Source of the DNA: Chrysophaeum taylorii
Taxonomy: Eukaryota > Sar > Pelagophyceae > Pelagomonadales > Pelagomonadaceae
Assembly (NCBI GenBank): GCA_029834535.1
Contig: JAQMWT010000427.1
Span: 93,936 to 157,935 of the forward strand
Direction: 5' to 3'
DNA length: 64,000 nucleotides
Part shown: positions 12,464 through 60,387 of the stretch, one piece after another
Layout of the letters: each line of letters starts with the position of its first letter
How positions within the stretch are numbered: the first letter of the stretch is position 1
The notes under the pieces: model-generated
What the model was told of the DNA's origin: nothing
Databases searched by the model: none
Seen by the model: the letters and a program-made list of their open reading frames with translations, nothing else
Position numbers and translations under genes: made by a program

Positions 12464-12468
12464 CTAAG

Positions 12469-12751
12469 CACAGGGGTATATATAGCCCCGGGCACTCGCA
12501 CACACCAGGACCGGCATACCTACCCTCACCTTTTGGTTATGAGCCCGTAAAGCGCTCGAGGTGGTTCGCGCGTTCGAATCCGCCCCACCGCTGCGCCGCA
12601 AGGGGTGTGTGAATGTCTGCGCGAAGTAGTTGCCGTCGCCAACTGCTGGAGCGCCCCATCGTCCAGCACACGCACTAGACCCCCCTCATCTGGGCGCTCT
12701 CACTTACCAGGAGGCACACACCAGGACCGGCATTCCTACCCTCACCTTTTG
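12469..12751 (+). mobile_element. TRIM-like miniature LTR element, copy A (internally deleted)
   Basis: The element is 283 bp. Its left terminal repeat (12469-12535) starts CACAGGGGTATATATAGCCC and ends CCTCACCTTTTG. The right repeat keeps only its last 38 bp (12714-12751). It is flanked by a perfect 5-bp target duplication CTAAG (12464-12468 and 12752-12756). Directly after the left repeat, GGTTATGAGCCCG (12535-12547) is complementary to the anticodon arm of a tRNA-Met, fitting a half-tRNA primer-binding site. The body shares about 180 bp with copy C at 54133-54569, which lies in the opposite orientation. It has no coding capacity, so it is non-autonomous. Confidence 0.78.
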
Positions 12752-12928
12752 CTAAGACCCTTTGGTTGAAAAACAAGCCCTCAGAAAAAGGATGTAAAGC
12801 TCTTGGGATGATTGTAATACGTTCGCGAAACCGCCGTCGCCAGCTCAGTATATCAGTATATTGCGCACCAAACGGATCGCAAGGAACGGGAAGTTCAATG
12901 TGCGTCTGTCTGTCCGACTGCGAAGGCG

Positions 12929-30539: not shown

Positions 30540-31277
30540 CACGAGTCGCTTCGGTGTACGCAGCATTGCGAAATGTGGCGCACGTGCGCACAAAGTACAG
30601 GATAGCCCTCATGTTTTAACTGCATCATCATACCGCACGTCGCGCCGATAAGCGAGCGTGGTCTACACCATTTCGATCAAGCATTGATCGTCGGGATTCT
30701 GCGCTCTGGCAAACAACATAAACAGAAGGCACGCGACGGCGACATCTTCCTACCGCACCGGCCTTGATTGGTGACCTGCTCGACGTCCCTTGCCCGGTTT
30801 GAGCAAAAGGGGCGCCGACGGCCTTCCAAACTCGCGGCGAAATGGCGTGCCGATTGGTCAGCTCGATCGCAGCCCCGCGCTCTAGCAGAAGAAAAACGAC
30901 ATCAATATGGTTATGCCAGGTTGTGAGTTCTTAGGTCGACGTCAAAAGACCCCTAACTCCAAAGCTGCAGTGCGGGTCGGCGCAGTCTCATCGTTCCTTT
31001 TCGGATGATATCTACACCGTGCTTGATTAACGACCCACGTCCGCTCGGCGATCTGGGCCGCGCAGGTTCGTGCAGTTCGTGGCATTCCTCGCTTACCTCA
31101 ACACAAGCGCCGAGGACCACGCCATCGACAGTGCCAGAGCTGGGCACGCGTAGCTCGATATGCGCCCGCAGTCGCGAGGACTGTTGTTGTTGCGTTGGTA
31201 GCGTCCTCACCGTGGATCGCAACAACGCATTGGTCAACGGCCCCAGAACACTCTGGTACGCTGGTAATGGGTATTTT
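30540..31277 (-). pseudogene. Ankyrin-repeat gene relic
   Basis: On the minus strand around 30785-30905 the peptide VVFLLLERGAAIELTNRHAI is a clear ankyrin turn (F-L-L-E-R-G-A-x-I-E-x-x-N-x-x-x-x-x-P). Further upstream (about 30960-31240) are frames with IELRVPSSGTVDGVVLGACV and LIKHGVDIIRKGTMRL. Stops and frame changes separate these pieces, so no intact gene remains. Confidence 0.4.
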
Positions 31278-31344
31278 CAAAAGGTGAGGGTAGGAATGCC
31301 GGTCCTGGTGTGTGCGAGTGCCCGGGGCTATATATACCCCTGTG
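31278..31344 (-). mobile_element. Solo terminal repeat of the TRIM-like element (copy B)
   Basis: 67 bp, CAAAAGGTGAGGG to ATACCCCTGTG on the plus strand, more than 90% identical to the terminal repeats of copies A and C. It is flanked by a perfect 5-bp duplication ATTTT (31273-31277 and 31345-31349), as expected for recombination between the two terminal repeats. Confidence 0.8.
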
Positions 31345-31349
31345 ATTTT

Positions 31350-39249: not shown

Positions 39250-40675
39250 CGGCGATTATTTTGGGAGTACTATTAAATAAATCCACCGCACTCAGGGGAC
39301 ATACAACTGGCTTCCCACGACGGCGCTGGTTTCGGCGACCCAGCCAACGTTCATCTCGTCGACGGTTCTCTCTCCCACGAATTCGTCTCCATGGGCGTCC
39401 TCGTCGACCCCACCATCTCGACACCCGTGCTCATACCCCAACTCCAGCGTGCTCTAACCTCCCAGCGCGAGACAGCTCGGGCCACTGCACTCCAGCGCCT
39501 TGCGGCCACCCTTCCCATCACCGATGCACTTCGAGTAGCGGCGTCCTCCTGGGATCGCTTCTCGACCACGTTCATCAGCTCGTGGCCCAGCTCCGCCCTT
39601 CAAATCCCCAACCGCTGCTGGGCTGAGATGTGTGCCCAGTACTTTGGCTACCCCTCTCCAGCTTGTTCGGGCCTCGTGGGCACTCGCATTCTGGACACTG
39701 ACGTCGTTCTCGACGCTCACGGCAAGGTGCTTCTCATGCAGGCCAACCTTGTCAAGCGTGGAGGAGCGCGGACCAACTGGCATGACGGCCAGCTCGACTG
39801 CGTCCTCTGCAGCGTCAAAGAGGCCGGCATCCCAGCCCTGTCCGAGGTTTTCGGCATCTTTGCTGACGTCGTCGCCCCTACCATTCGCACGTGCCTCTAC
39901 GGCCGGTACCGAGGCAATCTCGCCCGTCGCCACGTCGTCCCAGACATCCTCACCACGCTCGACAACAAGGAGCAACTCTACGACATCAAAACCCTCGCTG
40001 GGGTTCGTTATACACCGCCCACGCCCTCCATCCCTCCCACCCGTCGCCTGTCGATAGGCGCGCAGCGCAAGTCCACTCCGAATACCTCGCTCACGCCCGC
40101 GGCATCGACGCCATCATCCCCCAGCCGGGTACAGCACCACCGCCTGGCTTCTTGGGCCCTGTCGAACAGCGGCTACGTAGCTACGGCACCGTCGCCGGCC
40201 TCGTCTTTGGTGCCTTCGGTGAGGCCAGCGCGGCGTGCCACGCTCTCGCCCAAACATGCGCAGAGCGCATCGCTGCGCGAACCTGGGTGGCAAGCGGCTG
40301 CGCCAACTTCACAGAGGCAAAGGCGGCCCAAACTCGCCGCATCTACCGTGAGAGGGGATCGCCAACGCATTAGGCCGGGCTCGCTGTGCCCTCACCGCCC
40401 TCACCCATGTCGCCGCCGCGGGGAACCCCACCCAGGCCGCCCGATCCCAGCAGGACGTCACCCTTCGTCGCACATACGTCCGGCGGCAGCATGCGTACGA
40501 CCTACGGGCGGGGCCCGTCCTCTCTTCGCCTGCCCCACGCCTCGGCGATGACCCCGACTAGGTCCCGCGTACTTATCTCCGCCCGTCAGGCACATCCCTC
40601 CTACCCCACAAACCCACCCACATCCTTCATGCTCCCCACACACACCCCCCTCTTAGCAGTCGACATTTAAAGACA
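39250..40675 (+). mobile_element. Non-LTR retroelement 3' part with nuclease-like domain, frameshifted
   Basis: The + strand frame 39391-40018 encodes VDPTISTPVLIPQLQRALTS, the helical region AEMCAQYFGYPSPAC, then RHVVPDILTTLDNKEQLYDI followed by KTL. The order P-D...D-I-K is that of a PD-(D/E)XK nuclease, as in R2/CRE-type LINEs that carry a restriction-like endonuclease at the C-terminus. Near 40005-40015 the frame shifts and continues as EYLAHARGIDAIIPQPGTAP, FGAFGEASAACHALAQTCAE and so on to about 40373. Another frameshift there breaks the end, which is intact in the copy at 52410. The reverse transcriptase is absent here. The 3' tail is TTAGCAGTCGACATTTAAAG. Confidence 0.6.
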
Positions 40676-40958
40676 TACAACTAGTATCCTCGAAGCTGAC
40701 ATCACGTCCCCTAGTCCTCGTCCTTGCAAGGACCATCATAGTTTACCTTCCCATGCTGCTGCCAAAGGGAACGCGCGACCCCAATAGTGGCTTATTTGCC
40801 CGTCCATCACCTCGCCCTCAATGCTCCTCTCTAAACCTCTCGTCTGAACGCTCTGTGATTTTGCGCACATTGCCAGTTGCAAAGCATGTCTAGTGAAAAG
40901 CCTGTGAGAGTTTCCGAGTGCCATAAGTCACGACAGAGCTGAGGACGTCGACAAGGGC
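40676..40958. other. Intergenic region, nothing seen
   Basis: No consistent coding or repeat signal. Confidence 0.3.
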
Positions 40959-46872: not shown

Positions 46873-47575
46873 CAGACAGACAGACATATAGACAGACGAG
46901 GGACCTCCTCCTCCTAGTCCACTCATTTCAATTGCGTGGTGGGTTTTGATTTTATTTGATTTAATTTAATTTAATTTGATTTAATTTACCACGCGCGGGC
47001 GGCTGTGGTAACATGTGAACTTTCAAAAACTCCGGCTGTAATAATAAACCCACACATTAGGAATTGTGATTCTCTACCTCGTACGTTATCTATCGCCCTC
47101 TCCTCAAGACATGAGCTTCCCTTGTGCCATAATTGAATCAGTCCTGTTCTTCGAGCGAGCGAGCGAGCGAGCGAGCGAGCTCTCGCGGTACCTCGTCCGC
47201 CTGCGTTTTCACAACATACAGGCCATCCGCCTTTCGCGGAGGCGGCTCGCGTCGTCGCATCGCGATCCCTTCCGCACGGCTTCTCTCCGCCCGTGGGTAT
47301 TTTGGATGTAGGGTTTCTTCGAATTTCCACCGGTTCACGGCGCTTTTCACCCTTCGCCCGTCCGCGGGGGGGGTGGGAGGTCAGAAGTGCAAAAAACACG
47401 TCGCAACATGATTATGGTGTTTACGAGCAGCCCTGATAAAAATGAAAGGCAGTAAAGTGAGATTGATGAGCCGCCATGTACCAAGCTAGTCAGCAAGTAA
47501 GAAGCCGAGAACAACGGCCAAATAAGAGAAGTCCTTCGGGGCGCTCCTTGCTCCAGAGAGTCGGAGCGTCGTAGG
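46873..47575. other. Intergenic region with TTTAATTTGATT and GAGC repeats
   Basis: Contains ATTTAATTTAATTTGATTT repeats (46950-46988) and a (GAGC)n run (47154-47182). I see no gene. Confidence 0.4.
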
Positions 47576-47577
47576 CG

Positions 47578-47803
<226 letters not shown>

Positions 47804-50590
47804 TCCGGCATCATCACGAGGGTGGCGAAAGTTGTGGAGAGGAGGCCAGTGCGGAGGGAGTTAGTACTAACGCAACCTCCACATCGCTCACCGTCACAAG
47901 ACGAGACGTCAGAACTGATCATATATAATCGACGATCTGTAGATATTGCGCAATGTTCCGGCCAGCAACGAGAGGCGTTGTTAAGGGTGCCTCCATGATA
48001 CTGCCAGGCCCGGCGATGCGCATGTGTGGCTTCAGATTATGATGCTCCCAATGTTTTTTCGACCGTGTCTCACGCGCCTCGTCCTTATCGTATAATCGGC
48101 TGTAATGGTCTTCGACCCGAAGTTGCAACCTTCAGGATATCATTTGTGACAACGGCAGCATCCAGTTTGGGGGATTCTCGCCGAAGTATCCAGTCGATTG
48201 CTTCGTCAACCTTGATCTGGTCAAATACGTTTTCACTCGCCAGCTCCATTCGGTTGAAATCAAGGTTTCTCGCGGCTTTATGATTGTAGGATTTTTTTTC
48301 CGGGAGTCGGCGAGGTAAGTCACCGAGGACAGCACTGACAATAACATTCTTGCATGTCAAGCAGCCTCTGGCGCACATCAGTTTCATTGCCTGGGGACGA
48401 TGAGAGCTTAAAAAAAAGCTTCATCTTGATGACGGATGCACAAAGACCTTCGCGATAGTCTGGTATAAAAATTGCAAGGGTAGATTCGCGACTTGGACTG
48501 AAGACTTGGCGAGCGCTTCGTCAATGTCAAGCTGGCTGACCAAAGCATAGACGGTATAGACGAATCAAAACTGCGCGATGACCAAGCCAGCCACGAATCT
48601 GCCTTTTGACAGTGCCCTCGGCATCGCCAGCCAGCTCAAGCTTGAGAAAATGCAATATAGATGGTAGATCCGTCAGAAAGTGGCGAAGCACTCGAGTCTC
48701 GGATACGCCAAAACGAACCTCGAAGAGGTACCCAAGCTCCTCCACTCACTACCAATGCAAAGGCGTCGCATTCCGCGTACGCGCTTGGGCGATTGCGAGA
48801 AGTAGGAATATATAGGTGGCCTTATTTTCAACGTGGATCTTGGACATGTAGTTAGCTACCCTCAGCGGCGTCATTTCCCGCCGCCTTGGCCAGATTGCAC
48901 ACATGCACATGATCGTGGAAGAGTTCAGCCGTCACCTCGCCGTAGCCATCCACAGGATCATTGATGAGAGACTTGACGCTGCTCGGCCCGGTGCCGTTGT
49001 AGACGAACTCGCCATTGAAGGAAAAGACGTGGATCTGCTCTGCAATGCCCTGACCATGCCCAGGAAATTTACTCATCTTGAAGCGAGAGTTGTCGACTCA
49101 CCAGGGCGCTGCTCTTCGGAAAGGCTGATGCCTTAGTTTTCGGCGGTCTCACACAGAAGATTGAAGCACACCAAAGCGCCGGCTTCAGGCGACTAGCATC
49201 CGTCAAAGTTCGTGTAGTCGCCGGTACCCTATGGCCTTGATTTCAAGATGCAGCACAGCCGGCGTGCCAAGGGCATTGACGCGAACTGTATCAATTCAAA
49301 CTGCCGGCCTAGTATGGTCACCTTGTCTGCCTTGAGAGTCTCATGCGGCGATGTCGCACGATGAAATTGCAAGCCTGGAGGGATGAAGTTCGTAATTTGC
49401 CTCTGGCCGACCTGCGCGATGACCTCGACTATTTGGCTGCTGCCTTACGTGAATGCTACCGTTGACCGACTTCAGCATTGCTCTCATTTAGGAACAAGCG
49501 CCTCATTTTTATCGACAAAAAGGAATGCTTTTACTTAAAACCCTGTGAATGACCGCGCGAAAAATATTACACATGGCGTCGACTTCAAGCCTCTGCGCAT
49601 TGCAGCGACCCCAACATCAGTGGTCTGCTACGACGCTGCTTCAGTCTACGCCACCATACAGCGGCGATGTAACTCGGAATCACTGAAGCGAGATTTCAAG
49701 GCCTTCCAAAATTGTGCTCTACTGTACAGCGCGTGGATGGCCGAAGTTGCAGATTGTGACGAGTTTCGGATCCGACGTGATTTTGGGCTCTGGCCATCGA
49801 GACCATGGACGCCATCATGTTCAGAGCAGACGGTGAAAAAGAGCCTGCTGCTAAGTTGAACGCCGATCATGGCCTCACCCTTCGTTCTAGTTATATTCAC
49901 CCTTCTCGATGAGCTTCTCGATCATTTTTTTATTCTTACAAACGTTTTTTATTAAACAGCATCATGCCGCACATGCTCCTTCTTTATCCCCATCTTCGTA
50001 CTTGACATCTTGCACATCGAACATCTTCTTCCATGAGCCTCCTTGCACACTCAAATCTCCTCGTCGATGACAAGGCGCCTCCCATGTAGTTTGTTTTTCT
50101 CTCTTTTCCCGAGATGAGTCTCTTTGAGAGATAAAAAGTTCTATCTAGGGTTTTCTTCCCATCCTAGCTATCCTAGTTTAGACACATTCACACACTCAAA
50201 CCAGAAAGCACTCTGCTCTACACCGTGCTTCTCTTCGTGTCGTTAGAGACAGGACGTTAATACATTAAGAGCAGCACGACCACAGCCCAATTTTCTTTCT
50301 ACCAGAGGACATAGAGATTTTGCTGCCTCTTAATTCCGCCAGATTTATAAAGATTTTAGCTCTTGGAAAGCGGGCTACTTACTTACGCCTCGGTTTTTTC
50401 TGCTGCACTGATTTTACTGTCTTTAAATGTCGACTGCTAAGAGGGGGGGGGGGTGTGTGGGGAGCTGATTTTACTGTCTCTTCTCCGTATCGGCCACCCT
50501 CGTGGTGGTAGATTCAAATCACTTTGTTTGAAGTGAATACGTTGAAGTGAAGTGAAGTGAACTTCCTGACGTGAGTGGGGGTTTAGTGAA
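47804..50590. pseudogene. Long region with relic fragments only
   Basis: Fragments with some coding look occur on the minus strand at about 48860-49075 (IHVFSFNGEFVYNGTGPSSV) and 48090-48380 (ESPKLDAAVVTNDILKVATS), and on the plus strand at 49545-49860 (YDAASVYATIQRRCNSESLK). None starts or ends cleanly or matches a family I recognise. The composition is lower in GC. Near 50420-50450, inverted tail sequence of the non-LTR element is present. Confidence 0.3.
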
Positions 50591-52409: not shown

Positions 52410-53007
52410 GAATACCTCGCTCACGCCCGCGGCATCGACGCCATCATCCCCCAGCCGGGTACAGCACCACCGCCTGGCTTCTTGGGCCCTGTCGAACAGC
52501 GGCTACGTAGCTACGGCACCGTCGCCGGCCTCGTCTTTGGTGCCTTCGGTGAGGCCAGCGCGGCGTGCCACGCTCTCGCCCAAACATGCGCAGAGCGCAT
52601 CGCTGCGCGAACCTGGGTGACAAGCGGCTGCGCCAACTTCACAGAGGCAAAGGCGGCCCAAACTCGCCGCATCTACCGTGAGTGGGGGATCGCCAACGCA
52701 TTAGGCCGGGCTCGCTGTGCCCTCACCGCCCTCACCCATGTCGCCGCCTCGGGGAACCCCGCCCAGGCCGCCCGATCCCAGCAGGACGTCACCCTTCGTC
52801 GCACATATGTCCGGCGGCAGCATGCGTACGACCTACGGGCGGGGCCCGTCCTTTCTTCGCCTGCCCCACGCCTCGGCGATGACCCCGACTAGGTCCCGCG
52901 TACTTATCTCCGCCCGTCAGGCACATCCCTCATACCCCACAAACCCACCCACATCCTTCATGCTCCCCGCACGCACCCCCCCCTCTTAGCAGTCGACATT
53001 TAAAGAC
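52410..53007 (+). mobile_element. 5'-truncated copy of the non-LTR element
   Basis: This is about 97-98% identical to 40080-40675. It begins abruptly at GAATACCTCGC, as expected for a 5'-truncated retroposed copy. Its reading frame is intact to a stop at 52892 (FGAFGEASAACHALAQTCAE ... SSPAPRLGDDPD), showing that the source element had a longer, intact C-terminus than the copy at 40 kb. The tail TTAGCAGTCGACATTTAAAG is followed by ACAAACAAACTAACTAAC. A further tail fragment lies at 53036-53097. Confidence 0.75.
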
Positions 53008-53035
53008 AAACAAACTAACTAACAAACTAAATAAC

Positions 53036-53097
53036 TCACCCACATCCTTCATGCTCCCCACACACACCCCCCCCTCTTAGCAGTCGACATTTAAAAA
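53036..53097 (+). repeat. Extra copy of the non-LTR 3' tail
   Basis: CCCACATCCTTCATGCTCCC through CGACATTTAAAAACAAAC repeats the end of the neighbouring element. Confidence 0.75.
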
Positions 53098-53104
53098 CAA
53101 ACAA

Positions 53105-54012: not shown

Positions 54013-54132
54013 TGTCTGGCTCTCGCGCCTACCTGATCCTTACTCTCGCGCCTATCTGATCCTTACCCTAAATCGAGGGACAAACAACAGACAGACAGAC
54101 AGACAGACAAACATCTGTCGATTAGTAGTTAG

Positions 54133-54569
54133 CAAAAGGGAGGGTATGAATGCCGGTCCTGGTGTGCGCGAGTGCCCGGGGCTATATATACCCCTGTGCT
54201 TCCCCATCATAGTAAAACGTGAACATCTTGGGCGAGTCAAGCATGTATGTGTATGCGAGGCGATGGGGACCCAGCAGACGACGACGCCATCTGCTTAAGA
54301 TGAACATCTGTGTCGGAGATGAACACCCGTTCCTGGTAAGTGAAAGCGCCCAGATGAGGGGGGTCTAGTGTTTGTGCTAGACGATGGGGCTCCAGCAGTT
54401 GGCGACGGCAACTGCTTCGTAGACACTCACACACTCCTTGCGGCGCAGCGGTGGAACGGATTCGAACGCGCGATCCACCTCGAGCGCTTTAAGGGCCTAT
54501 AACCAAAAGGGAGGGTATGAATGCCGGTCCTAGTGTGCGCGAGTGCCCGGGGCTATATATACCCCTGTG
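54133..54569 (-). mobile_element. TRIM-like miniature LTR element, copy C (complete)
   Basis: The element is 437 bp with two 66-bp direct terminal repeats (54133-54198 and 54504-54569) that differ at one base. It is flanked by a perfect 5-bp duplication GTTAG (54128-54132 and 54570-54574). On the minus strand the 5' repeat is followed by GGTTATAGGCCC (54504-54493), a variant of the tRNA-Met anticodon-arm primer site. The 3' repeat is preceded by a purine run (GATGGGGAAG). The repeats contain TATATATA, a likely promoter. The internal 305 bp has no coding capacity. Confidence 0.85.
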
Positions 54570-54574
54570 GTTAG

Positions 54575-54967: not shown

Positions 54968-55302
54968 TGTGGCGGCAACTCCCGCCTCCTAAGGCTTACC
55001 CCTCTTCTAGGGCCCCCCTCATCAGGGGCACCCTACTCCGTTCCGATGATGTCAGAGTTTTCTCTGACATAATCTTCCTTTTCCGTGACATGTGTCACCC
55101 TGATTTCTGATTTCGATTATCTTTGATCATAAAGCAACAGCCGATCCTCAAGTTGAGAGGACCAGGCGCAGGAGTTGTTTGTGGTCGCGTGGCGGGAGAA
55201 CGGCCATCCTCGTCCAGTGATCCCACCAAGGGCACGGACGCGATCGGCGAGCCAGGATTCGAAGGCACGCCAGGTAGCCCCTAAAATTCTCCTTACGCCA
55301 CA
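54968..55302 (+). repeat. 5' LTR of the Gypsy element
   Basis: 335 bp, TGTGGCGGCAACTCC to CTTACGCCACA. It includes the inverted repeats AGGGCCCCCCTCATCAGGGG and TGTCAGAGTTTTCTCTGACA, possibly the polyadenylation or regulatory hairpins. Confidence 0.95.
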
Positions 55303-55337
55303 GGTGGTAACAGTATAAGCTGCGTCTATCGCGGCTC

Positions 55338-56285
55338 GTGATGATCCTAAATTATTTACCCTACGCGGAATGGTCGTCGTCGATGTGTGTCGCGTCGCCA
55401 CCCTGCGTACACTCCGCTCTGTGCAACTTGACTTCCAGAGATGTTGGGAAGGGAGTTACCGCTACCCACTGGACGATGAAATTATGCAAGATGGCTGGTT
55501 TCTTCATGTGGTTGATAGAGCAGGAGGCTTCGATTATTTCTTACGTTGCACGTTTGCACCCGTACGTATACGTCGTCAATTTTTACGACATAACTCCCAG
55601 TTTGATGAGCTGTCGCGTGCGATTGTTGGTTTCCAGCCATCCGCTCCATTTGCGTGCAGTTCCAAAGACTTGCAAGAATATGCAACAGAAGTTCGCCGCA
55701 GCACTTGGTTACGCCGACGAACGACATTTACTTCAGATGAACAATTTAGGATCATCACGAGCCGCGATAGACGCAGCTTATACTGTTACGCGTGTCCCGC
55801 TTCGCGTAGGACCGCACCGTTCCGATTACAGATCTCTGAATCTGGAAATGACTTCGGAGTTGCTGACAATGCCCCCTGATTTTGAGTGGGCCGGCTTCTC
55901 CAGGACGACCTCGTTGAAACACTTGGCGTCCGTCGTGCCACCTGACACGATGGCCTTATTAATGCTCGATCTGCACAACTCTGTGACCAAGGAATTTCAC
56001 CTGAGCGGCGAAGCTTTGCCGTCAGCGTTGAGTCCTGCAGACCGACCGTTTGATTATTATTTACAAATTGATGAAACCACCCTTCGTCACGTACAAGTTC
56101 CGCTGTTAAACACGCGCACACGTGTCATAAGATGGGTGTCGACTGATGATCTTCAAGATCACACCAAATGGAAACCTCCAGAGGTACCGTTGATTCCGCC
56201 TGCAACAGATGAGCCGGGGACGTCTCATGCTTCTTCTGCTGGGCCCCCCCCGACAACCAAATTTAGACGTTCCGCCAGATCCTGA
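55338..56285 (+). CDS. Gypsy ORF1 remnant (gag/protease position)
   Basis: An open frame of up to 315 residues precedes pol and overlaps it by 77 nt in a frame that would require a +1 shift to enter pol, as in Ty3. The first part is not convincing, but the C-terminal half is protein-like (MTSELLTMPPDFEWAGF, VPPDTMALLMLDLHNSVTKE, FDYYLQIDETTLRHVQVPLL). No CCHC zinc knuckle or D-T/S-G protease motif is visible. The true start is unclear because 55307-55353 is an inverted copy of 55743-55789, so the 5' end has been rearranged. Confidence 0.45.
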   Translation: MMILNYLPYAEWSSSMCVASPPCVHSALCNLTSRDVGKGVTATHWTMKLCKMAGFFMWLIEQEASIISYVARLHPYVYVVNFYDITPSLMSCRVRLLVSSHPLHLRAVPKTCKNMQQKFAAALGYADERHLLQMNNLGSSRAAIDAAYTVTRVPLRVGPHRSDYRSLNLEMTSELLTMPPDFEWAGFSRTTSLKHLASVVPPDTMALLMLDLHNSVTKEFHLSGEALPSALSPADRPFDYYLQIDETTLRHVQVPLLNTRTRVIRWVSTDDLQDHTKWKPPEVPLIPPATDEPGTSHASSAGPPPTTKFRRSARS

Positions 56286-59200
56286 GCGAGATCGGGAACC
56301 AAAGATTAAGAGCGAGCCGAGTGTTCGTGTCAAAGGCGAGAGGATCAACAAAAGCCACCCGGAAGTGAAACTAAAATACGAGAAAAAGTTCGATGTGCCA
56401 TGGAAAGATGCGCCGCGCGATGTCGAGGGTGCACCACTGCCGCAGACTCCTGAGCATGTCAAGGACAACGAAGCGATGAAAGTTAAAATTCCTACGAAGG
56501 AAGAAGTTGACAAGGTTGTGCAGGAGTTGGGAATTCCTGACAATCCGCACTTAGATGACGAGGCGAAACTGATGCTCCGCCATTGTGTGCGATATTCTTG
56601 GGCCTTTTTCGACCAGATTATGAGACCTGTGGACTCGCCTCCTGTGTCTCTACGATTCAAAGACGCGAATCCGCGACCGATTAAGATGACGCCCTACCGA
56701 TTGACGCCTGCGAAGCTCGATTGTCTCCGCAAGCAGATCAGCGAGTGGTGCCGGGATGGAGTCATTCGTCCGGCCAACTCACCTTGGGGCTTTCCTGTGT
56801 TGATGCTTCCGAAGAAAGGAGCTGAGATTGGAACGTCCAACGCGTTCCGTGCTGCAGTTGACTTACGTCAGCTCAACGATCAATTGGTCAATGACAGTTG
56901 GCCAAACATTCGACAAGATGATGCTTTAGCCTTTCTCGCGATGAGACGATGGCGGACATGCATTGATATTAGGTGGGGATACCACAACCTTCGTCTGGAT
57001 ACGGCAGCGCAGGACGCTGTCACGATGGTTAGCCCACTTGGCGCTCACAGTTTCTTGCGATTACCTCTAGGGGTGAAGACAGCCGGAGCTCTTTTCTGCA
57101 AGCAAATGGCGAGCGACCTTTCGAAATGGATGTATCAAGACTTGGTTGCGTTTGTTGACGATATTATGATGGGATCCGACGATCTTCATCGACATTTACA
57201 AGTTTTGATCGAAGTGATGTGTCATTTGGCACAGAGAGGGTACAGCGGTCGAACCGCGAAGTTCCACCTTCTCAAAGATGATATAGAATTTCTGGGACAC
57301 ATTTCTACCCCAGAAGGCTTGAAGCCGAATCCAAAGACGCTGGAAGCACTGCAGAAGATGCCGATTCCAGGTACTTTACCGAATACTTCCCCGAAGACCC
57401 AGATACGCTCTTTCATCGGCATGAGTAATTACTGCCGGCGATATGTAAAGGGCTACTCGAAGATTGTAGAACCGTTAAGACGATTATGCCTCGAAGGTGT
57501 AAAGTTCGAGTGGACGCCCGAGTGTCAGAAAGCTTGGGATACGATTATTGAAGCTTTGGTTGATTCCCGTGGAGTCTACCACGCCGATTATGATCTGCCT
57601 TTTCAGATCCGATCCGATGCTTCCAAGGATGGACTTGGAGCATATCTCTTCCAGATTGTCGAAGTCAAGGACGATGCCGGAAGGGTGACTCGAGAAGAAC
57701 GAGTAATTGAATACTGGAGCCGAGCTGTGCCGAAGGAGATGCGGAATTATGAGCCCCGTCGGCTAGAGCTGCTGGCAGTTATACTTTCTCTAGAGCACTT
57801 TCGAGCCTACATTGAAGGGCACCGGACTGTTTTGGAGACCGATCACCGAAATTTGACGTTTTTACGTAAGGCGACGCACTCGTCTGGGCAGCTTGCTCGT
57901 TGGGCGATGCGCCTCGCCAATTTTGACCCTGAACTTGGTTATAAGCCGGGAAAGTCACCGGGAATGAGTATCCCTGACTGTCTCTCCCGCAACCCGATTG
58001 ATCATGTCATCGAGACTGACGAGTTTGGAGAACCTTTGAACCACGCGTATTTAGTGTTCCAAGAGCTTCCCCGACCTGTTGATGACCGAGGAGTTCCCGT
58101 CTCTGGCTGCCACTTCATAATGTCGTTTATTACGACCGAACTGCCGGAAGACAGAGACGAAGACCCTGAAAAGGATCCGATGAAATTGGCTACGTCTCAC
58201 GCTACGAGACAACGTCGGAAGAACCGTGCGCGTGATGAGCCACAGATCTTCAAGGACGCAGCCGCTTACAAAGATTATATCGATAAGATACCCGATAATA
58301 TGACGCTCGCGGAGATCGCACGTGAGCAAGAATCTGATGCTACGTGCGAGGATATTCGCTACCGAATGGCCCAAGGTCAGACGCCACGACGTTCCCGAGC
58401 GAACGAACGATTCGAAGTCGTTAAAGATGTTCTTTACCGCATTTCTGCTGATTTGCACCCGATGATTGTTGCACCTGCTACGTTGCGCAAACGCATTATT
58501 CGACTTTATCATGACACTCCGGTTAACGGTGGTCATATGGGACGTCACAGTACCGTCCAGGCTATCCAAGAACGATTTTGGTGGCCCCACATGTCGAACG
58601 AAGTTGGAGTCTTCCTTGCTGAATGCTTAGTTTGTCAGAAAGCTCGTACGCCTGAGCCGAAACGAGCTGGACTCTTGCAGCAGCCCGTCTACGATGGTGA
58701 TGGTGCTGTTCTTTGCATGGATTTATTTGGACCCTTGCCCAGCGCTGGTCCCGAGACGTATCTTCTAGTATTTTTTGATCCGTTCTCGCATTTCTTGATT
58801 CTGGATGTTTTGAATGATAAGACTGCTGAGTCTGTCCTCGAGTCTTTTGTCATTAACATCCTTCTCAAGGGCTACTTGCCCCAGATGATTCGTACCGACA
58901 ACGGTAAAGAGTTCGTGAACAAGTTGATGCGCGAGTTCTGCCATCTCTTTAACACACGATACCAAACTACGATTCCTTATCATGCCCAGTCGAACCCGGC
59001 TGAGCGTGTCAACCGATTTATCAAGGCCTTCCTCCGTGCTTGCCTTCAAGGCCGGAACATCACGGATTGGCCTGACTTTGCCCATTATATTGCGTTTTGC
59101 TATAACCGCAAGTTTATTCCTGGCACGCAGATTTCTCCCTTTATGCTACGCCTGAACCGTCAGCCGATGCTACCGACTGACTACACGCTCATGGATTTGG

Positions 59201-60012
59201 ATACACGATTATTGCCGAAGACTCGCTCTGATGCAGTCGCCGAGACTCGCGAACGATTGAAATATTATACAAAGATCGTCCGCGAGGCTCGTGATAAAGC
59301 TTTGAAGAAACAGCGATTGGCTTACAATGCTGATCATGTTGATGTTGAATACAAGGAAGGATCGCACGTTTTGCTCTACATCCCTTTCCTTCAGAACAAA
59401 CTTCGACCGGAATGGCGAGGGCCGTTTATTATCAAGGAACGCCTCTCCCCGGTCACCTATAGGATTGAGTCTCTCGACTCTCCGCCCGAAGAACGACGTG
59501 TTCATGTAAGTCAGATCACGCCGGTGATGGTACCTCCGATCGTTGATCAAACCATCCGCAAACCCGAAGAAACCTTCCGTGATGATTATCAGCACGGTAA
59601 GTTTGTTGTTTTCCGGATTCCTGACCGGAAGCGCTCTGATTGGCGCAAGAAGATTTATGTTGCTGAAGTTTACGAGCCTTACGATTACCAAAATGATCGT
59701 GTCGCTCTACATTTCTATTCCGATTTGGGTCCGAATGATGATGTCGCTTATTTCAAGCCGACCTCTCACCTTTCGCACCGCAAGCTCAAGCCCGAATTCA
59801 AGGACGTTGAAGGTCGAAGTTTCACCGACAAGTCCCGAATTTCCTCCAACACAACTCCTTGTGTCACGGATTTCGCTCCGCACGAGATTGACGTGTTGGT
59901 CCCCAAGTTTACTTTACGCAGTGGTCGAGTTCCTGAACCGATCATCACCCGCGTCTACCAGAAGATTCGTTCACGAGATGCTCGTAAGGCGAAGCCGCGC
60001 TCCTCGCGCTAG
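56209..60012 (+). CDS. pol: Gypsy pol polyprotein: reverse transcriptase, RNase H, integrase
   Basis: The open frame gives up to 1267 residues. Reverse transcriptase: YRLTPAKLDCLRKQISEWCR, then CIDIRWGYHNLRL and the catalytic LVAFVDDIMMGSDD. RNase H: FQIRSDASKDGLGAYL, RRLELLAVILSLEHFR and VLETDHRNL carry the acidic residues. Integrase: an HHCC zinc finger (RLYHDTPVNGGHMGRHSTVQ ... CLVCQKA), then DDE residues in CMDLFGPLP, MIRTDNGKEFVN and NPAERVNRFI, and a chromodomain-free C-terminus with VEYKEGSHVLLYIPFLQNKL. The order RT-RNaseH-integrase is that of Ty3/Gypsy. The frame is uninterrupted. Codon use is clearly less GC-rich than in the host genes. Confidence 0.95.
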   Translation: MSRGRLMLLLLGPPRQPNLDVPPDPERDREPKIKSEPSVRVKGERINKSHPEVKLKYEKKFDVPWKDAPRDVEGAPLPQTPEHVKDNEAMKVKIPTKEEVDKVVQELGIPDNPHLDDEAKLMLRHCVRYSWAFFDQIMRPVDSPPVSLRFKDANPRPIKMTPYRLTPAKLDCLRKQISEWCRDGVIRPANSPWGFPVLMLPKKGAEIGTSNAFRAAVDLRQLNDQLVNDSWPNIRQDDALAFLAMRRWRTCIDIRWGYHNLRLDTAAQDAVTMVSPLGAHSFLRLPLGVKTAGALFCKQMASDLSKWMYQDLVAFVDDIMMGSDDLHRHLQVLIEVMCHLAQRGYSGRTAKFHLLKDDIEFLGHISTPEGLKPNPKTLEALQKMPIPGTLPNTSPKTQIRSFIGMSNYCRRYVKGYSKIVEPLRRLCLEGVKFEWTPECQKAWDTIIEALVDSRGVYHADYDLPFQIRSDASKDGLGAYLFQIVEVKDDAGRVTREERVIEYWSRAVPKEMRNYEPRRLELLAVILSLEHFRAYIEGHRTVLETDHRNLTFLRKATHSSGQLARWAMRLANFDPELGYKPGKSPGMSIPDCLSRNPIDHVIETDEFGEPLNHAYLVFQELPRPVDDRGVPVSGCHFIMSFITTELPEDRDEDPEKDPMKLATSHATRQRRKNRARDEPQIFKDAAAYKDYIDKIPDNMTLAEIAREQESDATCEDIRYRMAQGQTPRRSRANERFEVVKDVLYRISADLHPMIVAPATLRKRIIRLYHDTPVNGGHMGRHSTVQAIQERFWWPHMSNEVGVFLAECLVCQKARTPEPKRAGLLQQPVYDGDGAVLCMDLFGPLPSAGPETYLLVFFDPFSHFLILDVLNDKTAESVLESFVINILLKGYLPQMIRTDNGKEFVNKLMREFCHLFNTRYQTTIPYHAQSNPAERVNRFIKAFLRACLQGRNITDWPDFAHYIAFCYNRKFIPGTQISPFMLRLNRQPMLPTDYTLMDLDTRLLPKTRSDAVAETRERLKYYTKIVREARDKALKKQRLAYNADHVDVEYKEGSHVLLYIPFLQNKLRPEWRGPFIIKERLSPVTYRIESLDSPPEERRVHVSQITPVMVPPIVDQTIRKPEETFRDDYQHGKFVVFRIPDRKRSDWRKKIYVAEVYEPYDYQNDRVALHFYSDLGPNDDVAYFKPTSHLSHRKLKPEFKDVEGRSFTDKSRISSNTTPCVTDFAPHEIDVLVPKFTLRSGRVPEPIITRVYQKIRSRDARKAKPRSSR

Positions 60013-60052
60013 CACCTCGCTGGGGCAGCTCGAATTCTTACCAGGGGAGTCC

Positions 60053-60387
60053 TGTGACGGCAACTCCCGCCTCCTAAGGCTTACCCCTCTTCTAGGGCCC
60101 CCCTCATCAGGGGCACCCTACTCCGTTCCGATGATGTCAGAGTTTTCTCTGACATAATCTTCCTTTTCCGTGACATGTGTCACCCTGATTTCTGATTTCG
60201 ATTATCCTTGATCATAAAGCAACACCCGATCCTCAAGTTGAGAGGACCAGGCGCAGGAGTTGTTTGTGGTCGCGTGGCGGGAGAACGGCCATCCTCGTCC
60301 AGTGATCCCACCAAGGGCACGGACGCGATCGGCGAGCCAGGATTCGAAGGCACGCCAGGTAGCCCCTAAAATTCTCCTTACGCCACA
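60053..60387 (+). repeat. 3' LTR of the Gypsy element
   Basis: 335 bp, identical to the 5' LTR except at about three sites (start region, near 60207 and near 60226). Confidence 0.95.

Follow-up and report, generated by a model that had tools for sequence, protein, structure and literature searches.

A family of miniature LTR retrotransposons with CA..TG ends and mirror-image copies in Chrysophaeum taylorii

A 64,000-nucleotide stretch of the Chrysophaeum taylorii genome (contig JAQMWT010000427.1, positions 93,936 to 157,935; hereafter the window) contains, at 12469–12751, a short protein-less element that lies between two CTAAG pentamers and recurs elsewhere with the same terminal repeat. Its ends read CA..TG instead of the TG..CA that is canonical for long terminal repeats (LTRs), which raises the question of what the element is and how such a sequence could be copied and inserted. 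A preliminary description, made from the sequence alone, had called it a new family resembling terminal-repeat retrotransposons in miniature (TRIMs). The best joint explanation of the results below, to which a probability of roughly 80% is given, is a TRIM-type LTR family that would be primed by half of a tRNA-Met and mobilised in trans by Copia elements, and whose mirror-image DNA would have been integrated whole.

A short LTR family with CA..TG ends

The family element is about 440 bp long, with 67-bp LTRs that begin with CACAG and end with TTTTG. Three copies with a terminal repeat of 66–67 bp had been described near 12.5, 31.3 and 54.1 kb, each with its own perfect 5-bp duplication, and all three were borne out at 12469–12751 (copy A, CTAAG), 31278–31344 (copy B, ATTTT) and 54133–54569 (copy C, GTTAG). 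Copy A is on the forward strand and spans 12464–12756 with its duplications (12464–12468 and 12752–12756); it opens with a complete 67-bp 5′ LTR (12469–12535, CACAGG..CTTTTG, with TATATATA near its start) and retains, as had been stated, only the final 38 bp of its 3′ LTR (12714–12751). Copy B, on the reverse strand, is a solo LTR that occupies 31273–31349 together with its duplications. Copy C, also on the reverse strand, is a full element (54128–54574 including duplications at 54128–54132 and 54570–54574) with two 66-bp LTRs, the 5′ LTR at 54504–54569 and the 3′ LTR at 54133–54198, the latter adjoined by a polypurine tract, GATGGGGAAG, at 54199–54208.

The whole genome (70.8 Mb in 697 contigs, the window included) was searched with the repeat plus its primer site, which gave at least 48 matches; these come from the 40 candidates with the best scores among 319 found initially, so that such counts are lower bounds and biased towards well-preserved copies. 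Thirty of the matches were opened as loci. The junction of repeat and primer site, CCTTTTGGTTATGGGCC, occurs 124 times in the genome with at most one mismatch (68 + 56; 100 of the 124 places were listed), against none for the control. Within the window, a 35-base core of the repeat gave three matches with up to three mismatches, two in copy A and one in copy B, and none in 100 shuffles; copy C is too diverged and exceeds that limit.

Target duplications were audited in 27 distinct copies with both ends readable, namely A, B, C, 23 copies from the genome-search loci, and L109, which was chosen for a convergent pair seen in the genome search, the other copies not being selected by shape. The audit leaves out L019 (interrupted by other sequence), L020 (one end unresolved), L111 (an internal piece), L106 (a diverged relative) and the C675 ends L112 and L113 (left border without a complete repeat), as well as repeat views of copies already counted (L001 = A, L025 = L005, L027 = L007, L009 and L028 = L008, L030 = L029). 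The ends of L008 and L018 were set by eye, with U5 (unique 5′) ends CTTGTG and CTCTTG, and L026 was split by eye into two copies, L026a and L026b.

All 27 copies start with CA and end with TG, so that the unusual dinucleotides noted in copy A hold throughout; TG..CA, usual but not defining for TRIMs, was found in none. The duplication is a perfect 5-bp match in 26 copies, and these comprise 23 different sequences. Copies lacking a duplication and a conserved unit running past the proposed ends had been named as signs against the family: one of the 27 is imperfect (L004, 4 of 5 bases), and in these 27 copies the sequence immediately beyond the ends has nothing in common apart from the duplications and a host repeat. 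The preliminary description also took the duplications as proof of transposition by an integrase. The duplications stand, but “proof” is too strong, as no integrase is tied to the family.

The size of two-LTR copies ranges from 236 to 451 bp, except in a 707-bp copy that contains an internal duplication. A typical copy has 302–305 bp between its LTRs, too little for retrotransposon proteins, and the open reading frames of the window include none of 150 aa or more inside A, B or C. The family shows features that characterise TRIMs: a length below about 1000 bp, two direct LTRs, a primer site, a polypurine tract, duplications within the 4–6 bp range and no coding capacity. What the TRIM-like reading has gained beyond the preliminary description is a half-tRNA primer site, tandem arrays, a polypurine tract directly before the 3′ LTR in 15 of the 16 two-LTR copies (it is lost in copy A), and LTR pairs identical at 67 of 67 bases in four of the 16 (L010, L012, L013 and L022). 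In most of the other pairs the difference amounts to between one and three bases or an indel; the pair of copy A is truncated. In the window, ARAGORN called no tRNA and Rfam gave no match at gathering scores, including none to the hammerhead ribozyme that is the hallmark of retrozyme LTRs. Two of the two-LTR copies, L002 (241 bp) and L011 (236 bp), have lost much the same internal stretch and have duplications of their own; a still shorter form of this kind may be mobile.

The target duplications have a G+C content of 36%, compared with 50–68% in 4-kb steps of the window, and their middle base is A or T in 25 of 26. The host repeat, R1 (GACA/AAAC runs with ATTAGTAGTTAG), lies within 60 bp of 11 of the 27 copies, L026a and L026b among them being neighbours in one locus. 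It covers 632 of 3,034 flank bases and 653 of 264,816 bases in the window and 60 other fetched loci, a rough enrichment because the comparison loci had been chosen by their Copia or tRNA matches and not at random. The GTTAG site of R1 holds C, L005 and L026a; C is inserted in the opposite orientation from L005 and L026a, which makes it, at least, an independent insertion. R1, a favoured target of the TRIM, has copies in the window at about 40609–40680, 50418–50450, 52942–53104 and 54061–54132, and one R1 copy interrupts a Copia LTR at C46 (L093). In L003 (1120–1900) a full TRIM stands about 230 bp from a solo LTR that has a deletion. Both are flanked by GTATG/CATAC, with the flank repeated, and the pair looks like a tandem duplication of an inserted locus.

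Other repeats of the window may be listed here. A Gypsy-type LTR retrotransposon adjoins copy C (54968–60387); its LTRs (54968–55302 and 60053–60387) have TG..CA ends, unlike the TRIM, and CCAAC duplications, and its frame of 1267 aa contains reverse transcriptase, RNase H and integrase domains. The stretches 40080–40653 and 52410–52984 are 97–99% identical, lie 12.3 kb apart and both end in R1, forming an unassigned dispersed repeat. An array of 8-bp tandem repeats occupies 47548–47850. As to the organism itself, a Ycf46-like plastid frame, cytochrome b6 and part of a mitochondrial cox1 were identified; they are as expected of a photosynthetic eukaryote, probably one whose plastid is of the red lineage.

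Primer site and Copia elements

Directly 3′ of the 5′ LTR stands (G)GTTATGGGCCC. The primer site of the family, GGTTATGGGCCC, is exact in 11 of the 16 two-LTR copies. Copy A has the variant GGTTATGAGCCC at 12535–12546, the first G being the final base of the LTR, and copy C the variant GGTTATAGGCCC at 54493–54504 on the reverse strand. ARAGORN called tRNA-Met genes at C456 and C524, the two intact ones detected, in which GGGCCCATAACC of the anticodon arm is the exact complement of the primer site; the copy A variant is complementary to the tRNA-Met genes L107 and L108 with one difference. The site thus shows complementarity to the anticodon arm of an initiator tRNA-Met encoded in the same genome, the feature that marks copia-type half-tRNA priming. 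Counted along the tRNA, a primer whose 3′ end is nucleotide 39 would have the final G of the LTR as the first base to be copied. Drosophila copia has a primer of 39 nt, and in both copia and yeast Ty5 the primer site is complementary to the anticodon region of the initiator tRNA-Met; these two elements are autonomous and protein-coding and have canonical ends. On this match, GGTTATGGGCCC would be a copia-type half-tRNA primer site.

A second motif, Box 2 (ACCGCTGCGCC; 12587–12597 in copy A, forward strand, and 54442–54452 in copy C, reverse strand), matches 11 nt of the tRNA-Met D arm and is present in 14 of the 16 two-LTR copies. Such a match was equalled by 59 of 20,000 shuffles (one tRNA sequence tested), which is suggestive only of a second contact with tRNA-Met.

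The same primer site leads to the Copia elements of the genome. The 12-mer GGTTATGGGCCC occurs 683 times in the genome compared with four for the control, and a Copia reverse-transcriptase profile has at least 150 matches (150 scored of 1,670 candidates, all matching). At C29, C33, C42 and C46 the site lies 7570–7577 bases upstream of a Copia reverse-transcriptase match on the same strand, and at C30 the distance is 7266 bases. The Copia LTR is 315 bp long, reads TGCAGAG..CTCTGCA and is followed directly by GGTTATGGGCCCAG. TG precedes CAGAG in four of five 5′ sides read (C46 has TA), and CTCTGCA was found at six of six 3′ ends. A shorter LTR, CAGAG..CTCTG, was considered and ruled out by C77, where both ends were read and a GGCAC duplication shows the ends to be TGCAGAG and CTCTGCA. 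The TRIM and Copia therefore have primer site and duplication length in common and differ in their end letters.

A Copia enzyme can be inferred to mobilise the TRIM family in trans, by the following route. RNA would start, probably, at the TATA box in the 67-bp LTR. An initiator tRNA-Met cut in its anticodon loop would pair through its 5′ half with GGTTATGGGCCC just 3′ of the 5′ LTR and prime minus-strand DNA, and plus-strand DNA would, from the position of GATGGGGAAG, begin there. A reverse transcriptase and an integrase of Copia type would then, in trans, copy the element and insert it with the 5-bp duplications seen in its products. The LTR does end at the position expected for a primer that stops at tRNA nucleotide 39, and the integrated ends are CA..TG.

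Several results weigh against this proposal. The primer site is altered in four of the 16 two-LTR copies (A, C, L002 and L014) and deleted in one (L026b), although an altered site can have decayed only after the copy was integrated. All 11 positions of Box 2 match the C456 gene, but only 10 match the C524 gene, and the two copies that lack Box 2 (L002 and L011) keep their duplications. Folding of the L012 internal region as RNA is weak (z −1.64; 3 of 100 shuffles equally good). The Copia LTR that was read is TG..CA, and a comparison of the TRIM L012 with the fetched Copia stretches, which are partial elements, gave no similarity at E values up to 1e-3. No autonomous partner with TRIM ends was found in the genome listing of ends or in the Copia stretches.

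The results on Copia ends and on L012 also favour an alternative in which the same TRIM owed its movement to an autonomous element with CA..TG ends, now extinct or simply not seen, and not to the TG..CA Copia, a serious possibility held at slightly less than even odds. The primer site and duplication length that the TRIM has in common with Copia count against it. So does the genome listing of TTTTG ends before a primer site, other than CTTTTG, which yielded only three places, two of which belong to a diverged relative (one is L106). This relative, at L106 (C9) and C363:11848, is partly palindromic and carries another end, CAAGTTTTG, before the primer site.

One candidate for an autonomous partner, L019 on C88, was rejected. 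Downstream of its TRIM LTR and primer site is an open frame whose zinc-knuckle matches are weak and fall below the Pfam cut-off, but the intervening stretch is more probably the LTR of another element. This putative LTR (TG..CA, about 97 bp by eye) ends at an apparent full-length tRNA-Met primer site and would belong to an element nested in the TRIM. C88 has no second copy of this TRIM LTR variant, which genome-wide occurs at two places, C88 and C414. L104 and L105 were likewise rejected as tRNA genes: ARAGORN called neither, whereas it does call L107 and L108. L104 and L105 more likely contain long primer sites of another family. That family (L104, L105 and L019 1568–3078) seems to have a primer site that would pair with some 50 nt in the 3′ half of the initiator tRNA-Met; in L019 this site stands upstream of the gag-like frame with the weak zinc-knuckle matches.

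Tandem and mirror-image copies

Not all copies have the simple two-LTR form. L005, L006 and L008 are tandem forms with three or four LTRs inside one perfect duplication, and L004, whose duplication is the imperfect one, has three LTRs. Four copies are mirror images (L016, 181 bp; L021, 172 bp; L109, 202 bp; L024, 268 bp), and L007 is a five-LTR composite of 1246 bp. All five of L016, L021, L109, L024 and L007 have a U3 (unique 3′) end at both borders and a perfect duplication (TGTTT, ATAAC, CGATC, CGTTA and TGTCT, respectively, on the locus strand); with L109 left aside, copies of this kind number four of 26. L029 contains an inverted unit within a composite and has one U3 and one U5 end, again with a perfect duplication. 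The junctions of the inverted copies lie at or near short palindromes (GGGCCC, TCGA and CTCGAG), which suggests self-priming or template switching.

These arrangements, with one perfect duplication around each, suggest that mirror-image and tandem DNA was integrated whole. To gain the mirror-image shape, an ordinary copy rearranged in place would need a U3 end placed exactly against the far duplication. Under Copia-driven mobilisation, reverse transcription would occasionally yield a mirror-image DNA with two U3 ends, aided by self-complementary stretches such as the GGGCCC in the primer site, and the single duplications point to integration of this DNA as one unit. Tandem arrays may have formed by the same route or by later LTR–LTR recombination. 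In a more specific version, tentative and rather doubtful, a plus-strand strong-stop-like DNA (U3-R-U5-primer site) would dimerise or fold back via self-complementary stretches of the half-tRNA site, GGGCCC being an example, and an integrase accepting CA..TG would insert the resulting palindromic duplexes, with their two U3 ends, as a second mobile product of the element, though a dead-end one. A further point on the opposing side is that mirror-image copies with both sites exact are rare: a genome-wide search for two exact primer sites arranged as a palindrome, with 1–61 bases between them, gave just C238 and C318, each of them TRIM, and nothing in the control. The pattern misses L021, whose second site is altered, and L024, which has a single site.

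It is unlikely that the mirror-image and tandem copies arose only once an ordinary copy was in place, through fold-back during replication or unequal recombination within it, in which case they would be uninformative on reverse transcription. Recombination is the usual account of tandem TRIMs (PMC6934838), at least in that source, and the complex junctions at short palindromes would suit such an origin. But it is U3, not U5, that exactly meets the far duplication, and a later rearrangement would be expected to leave U5 there. The weakly inverted ends and the palindromic copies would fit a miniature DNA transposon whose terminal inverted repeats (CACAGGGG versus CAAAAGGT) are imperfect, but this reading is highly improbable in view of the direct LTRs, the solo LTR, the tRNA-matching primer site, the polypurine tract and the identical LTR pairs.

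Relation to known families

The family resembles TRIMs of several lineages, with its own distinctions. Plant TRIMs, as described in one account (PMC4717578), average 685 bp and include tandem arrays and an inverted maize pair within a single duplication. The present family is likewise short and protein-less, with direct LTRs, 5-bp duplications and tandem arrays, but differs from the TRIMs of that account in its size of about 440 bp, its 67-bp LTRs, its CA..TG ends and its short mirror-image copies made of LTR and primer site. In priming, the family is like the fungal Helenus TRIMs, for which anticodon-loop priming, mostly by initiator tRNA-Met, and a connection with Copia elements that carry this primer site too have been described (PMC10886601). 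Helenus and the present family have in common the initiator tRNA-Met anticodon-loop primer site, 5-bp duplications and the Copia link; the tRNA-like LTR sequence described for Helenus (TRIMp3) has no counterpart in the ARAGORN and Rfam searches of the window. The priming type of copia and Ty5, as given in the same source, is also alike.

The grass element SMART (FRetro129), with a reference of 292 bp and an 85-bp LTR, was called the smallest in 2012 (PMC3281118). It too is very small, has 5-bp duplications and is likely to have been moved in trans by a larger element, but in that account its ends are TGT..ACA, and its LTR is longer than the 67 bp found here; the two present copies of 236 and 241 bp are of about the size that grass SMART copies also reach (PMC3281118). 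In a haptophyte, Tisochrysis lutea, 240 TRIM sequences have been listed without manual check (PMC5963040). Among elements with non-canonical ends, TARE1, Tos17, AcCOPIA1 and the TGTT and AACA elements depart from TG..CA at one end only, as far as the accounts of them go (PMC3701649, PMC5659011). They have likewise amplified with such ends, whereas the present family differs at both. Neither an LTR family with CA..TG ends nor short U3/U3 palindromes were met in the open-licence literature searched.

Priming by a half-tRNA, tandem arrays and one inverted pair of TRIMs, like TRIMs themselves, are thus already in print, as far as these sources extend; what goes beyond routine annotation is the reversal of the end letters in every audited copy, together with the mirror-image integrants. 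LTR elements outside TG..CA are few, with one end changed in those reported in the sources cited, and amplification with CA..TG ends bears on what an integrase requires of the ends it inserts. A half-tRNA primer site is common to the TRIM family and the Copia elements of the same genome. The mirror-image copies, each within one duplication, look like two-U3 by-products of reverse transcription that were integrated and so recorded naturally in the genome, and their junctions are testable.
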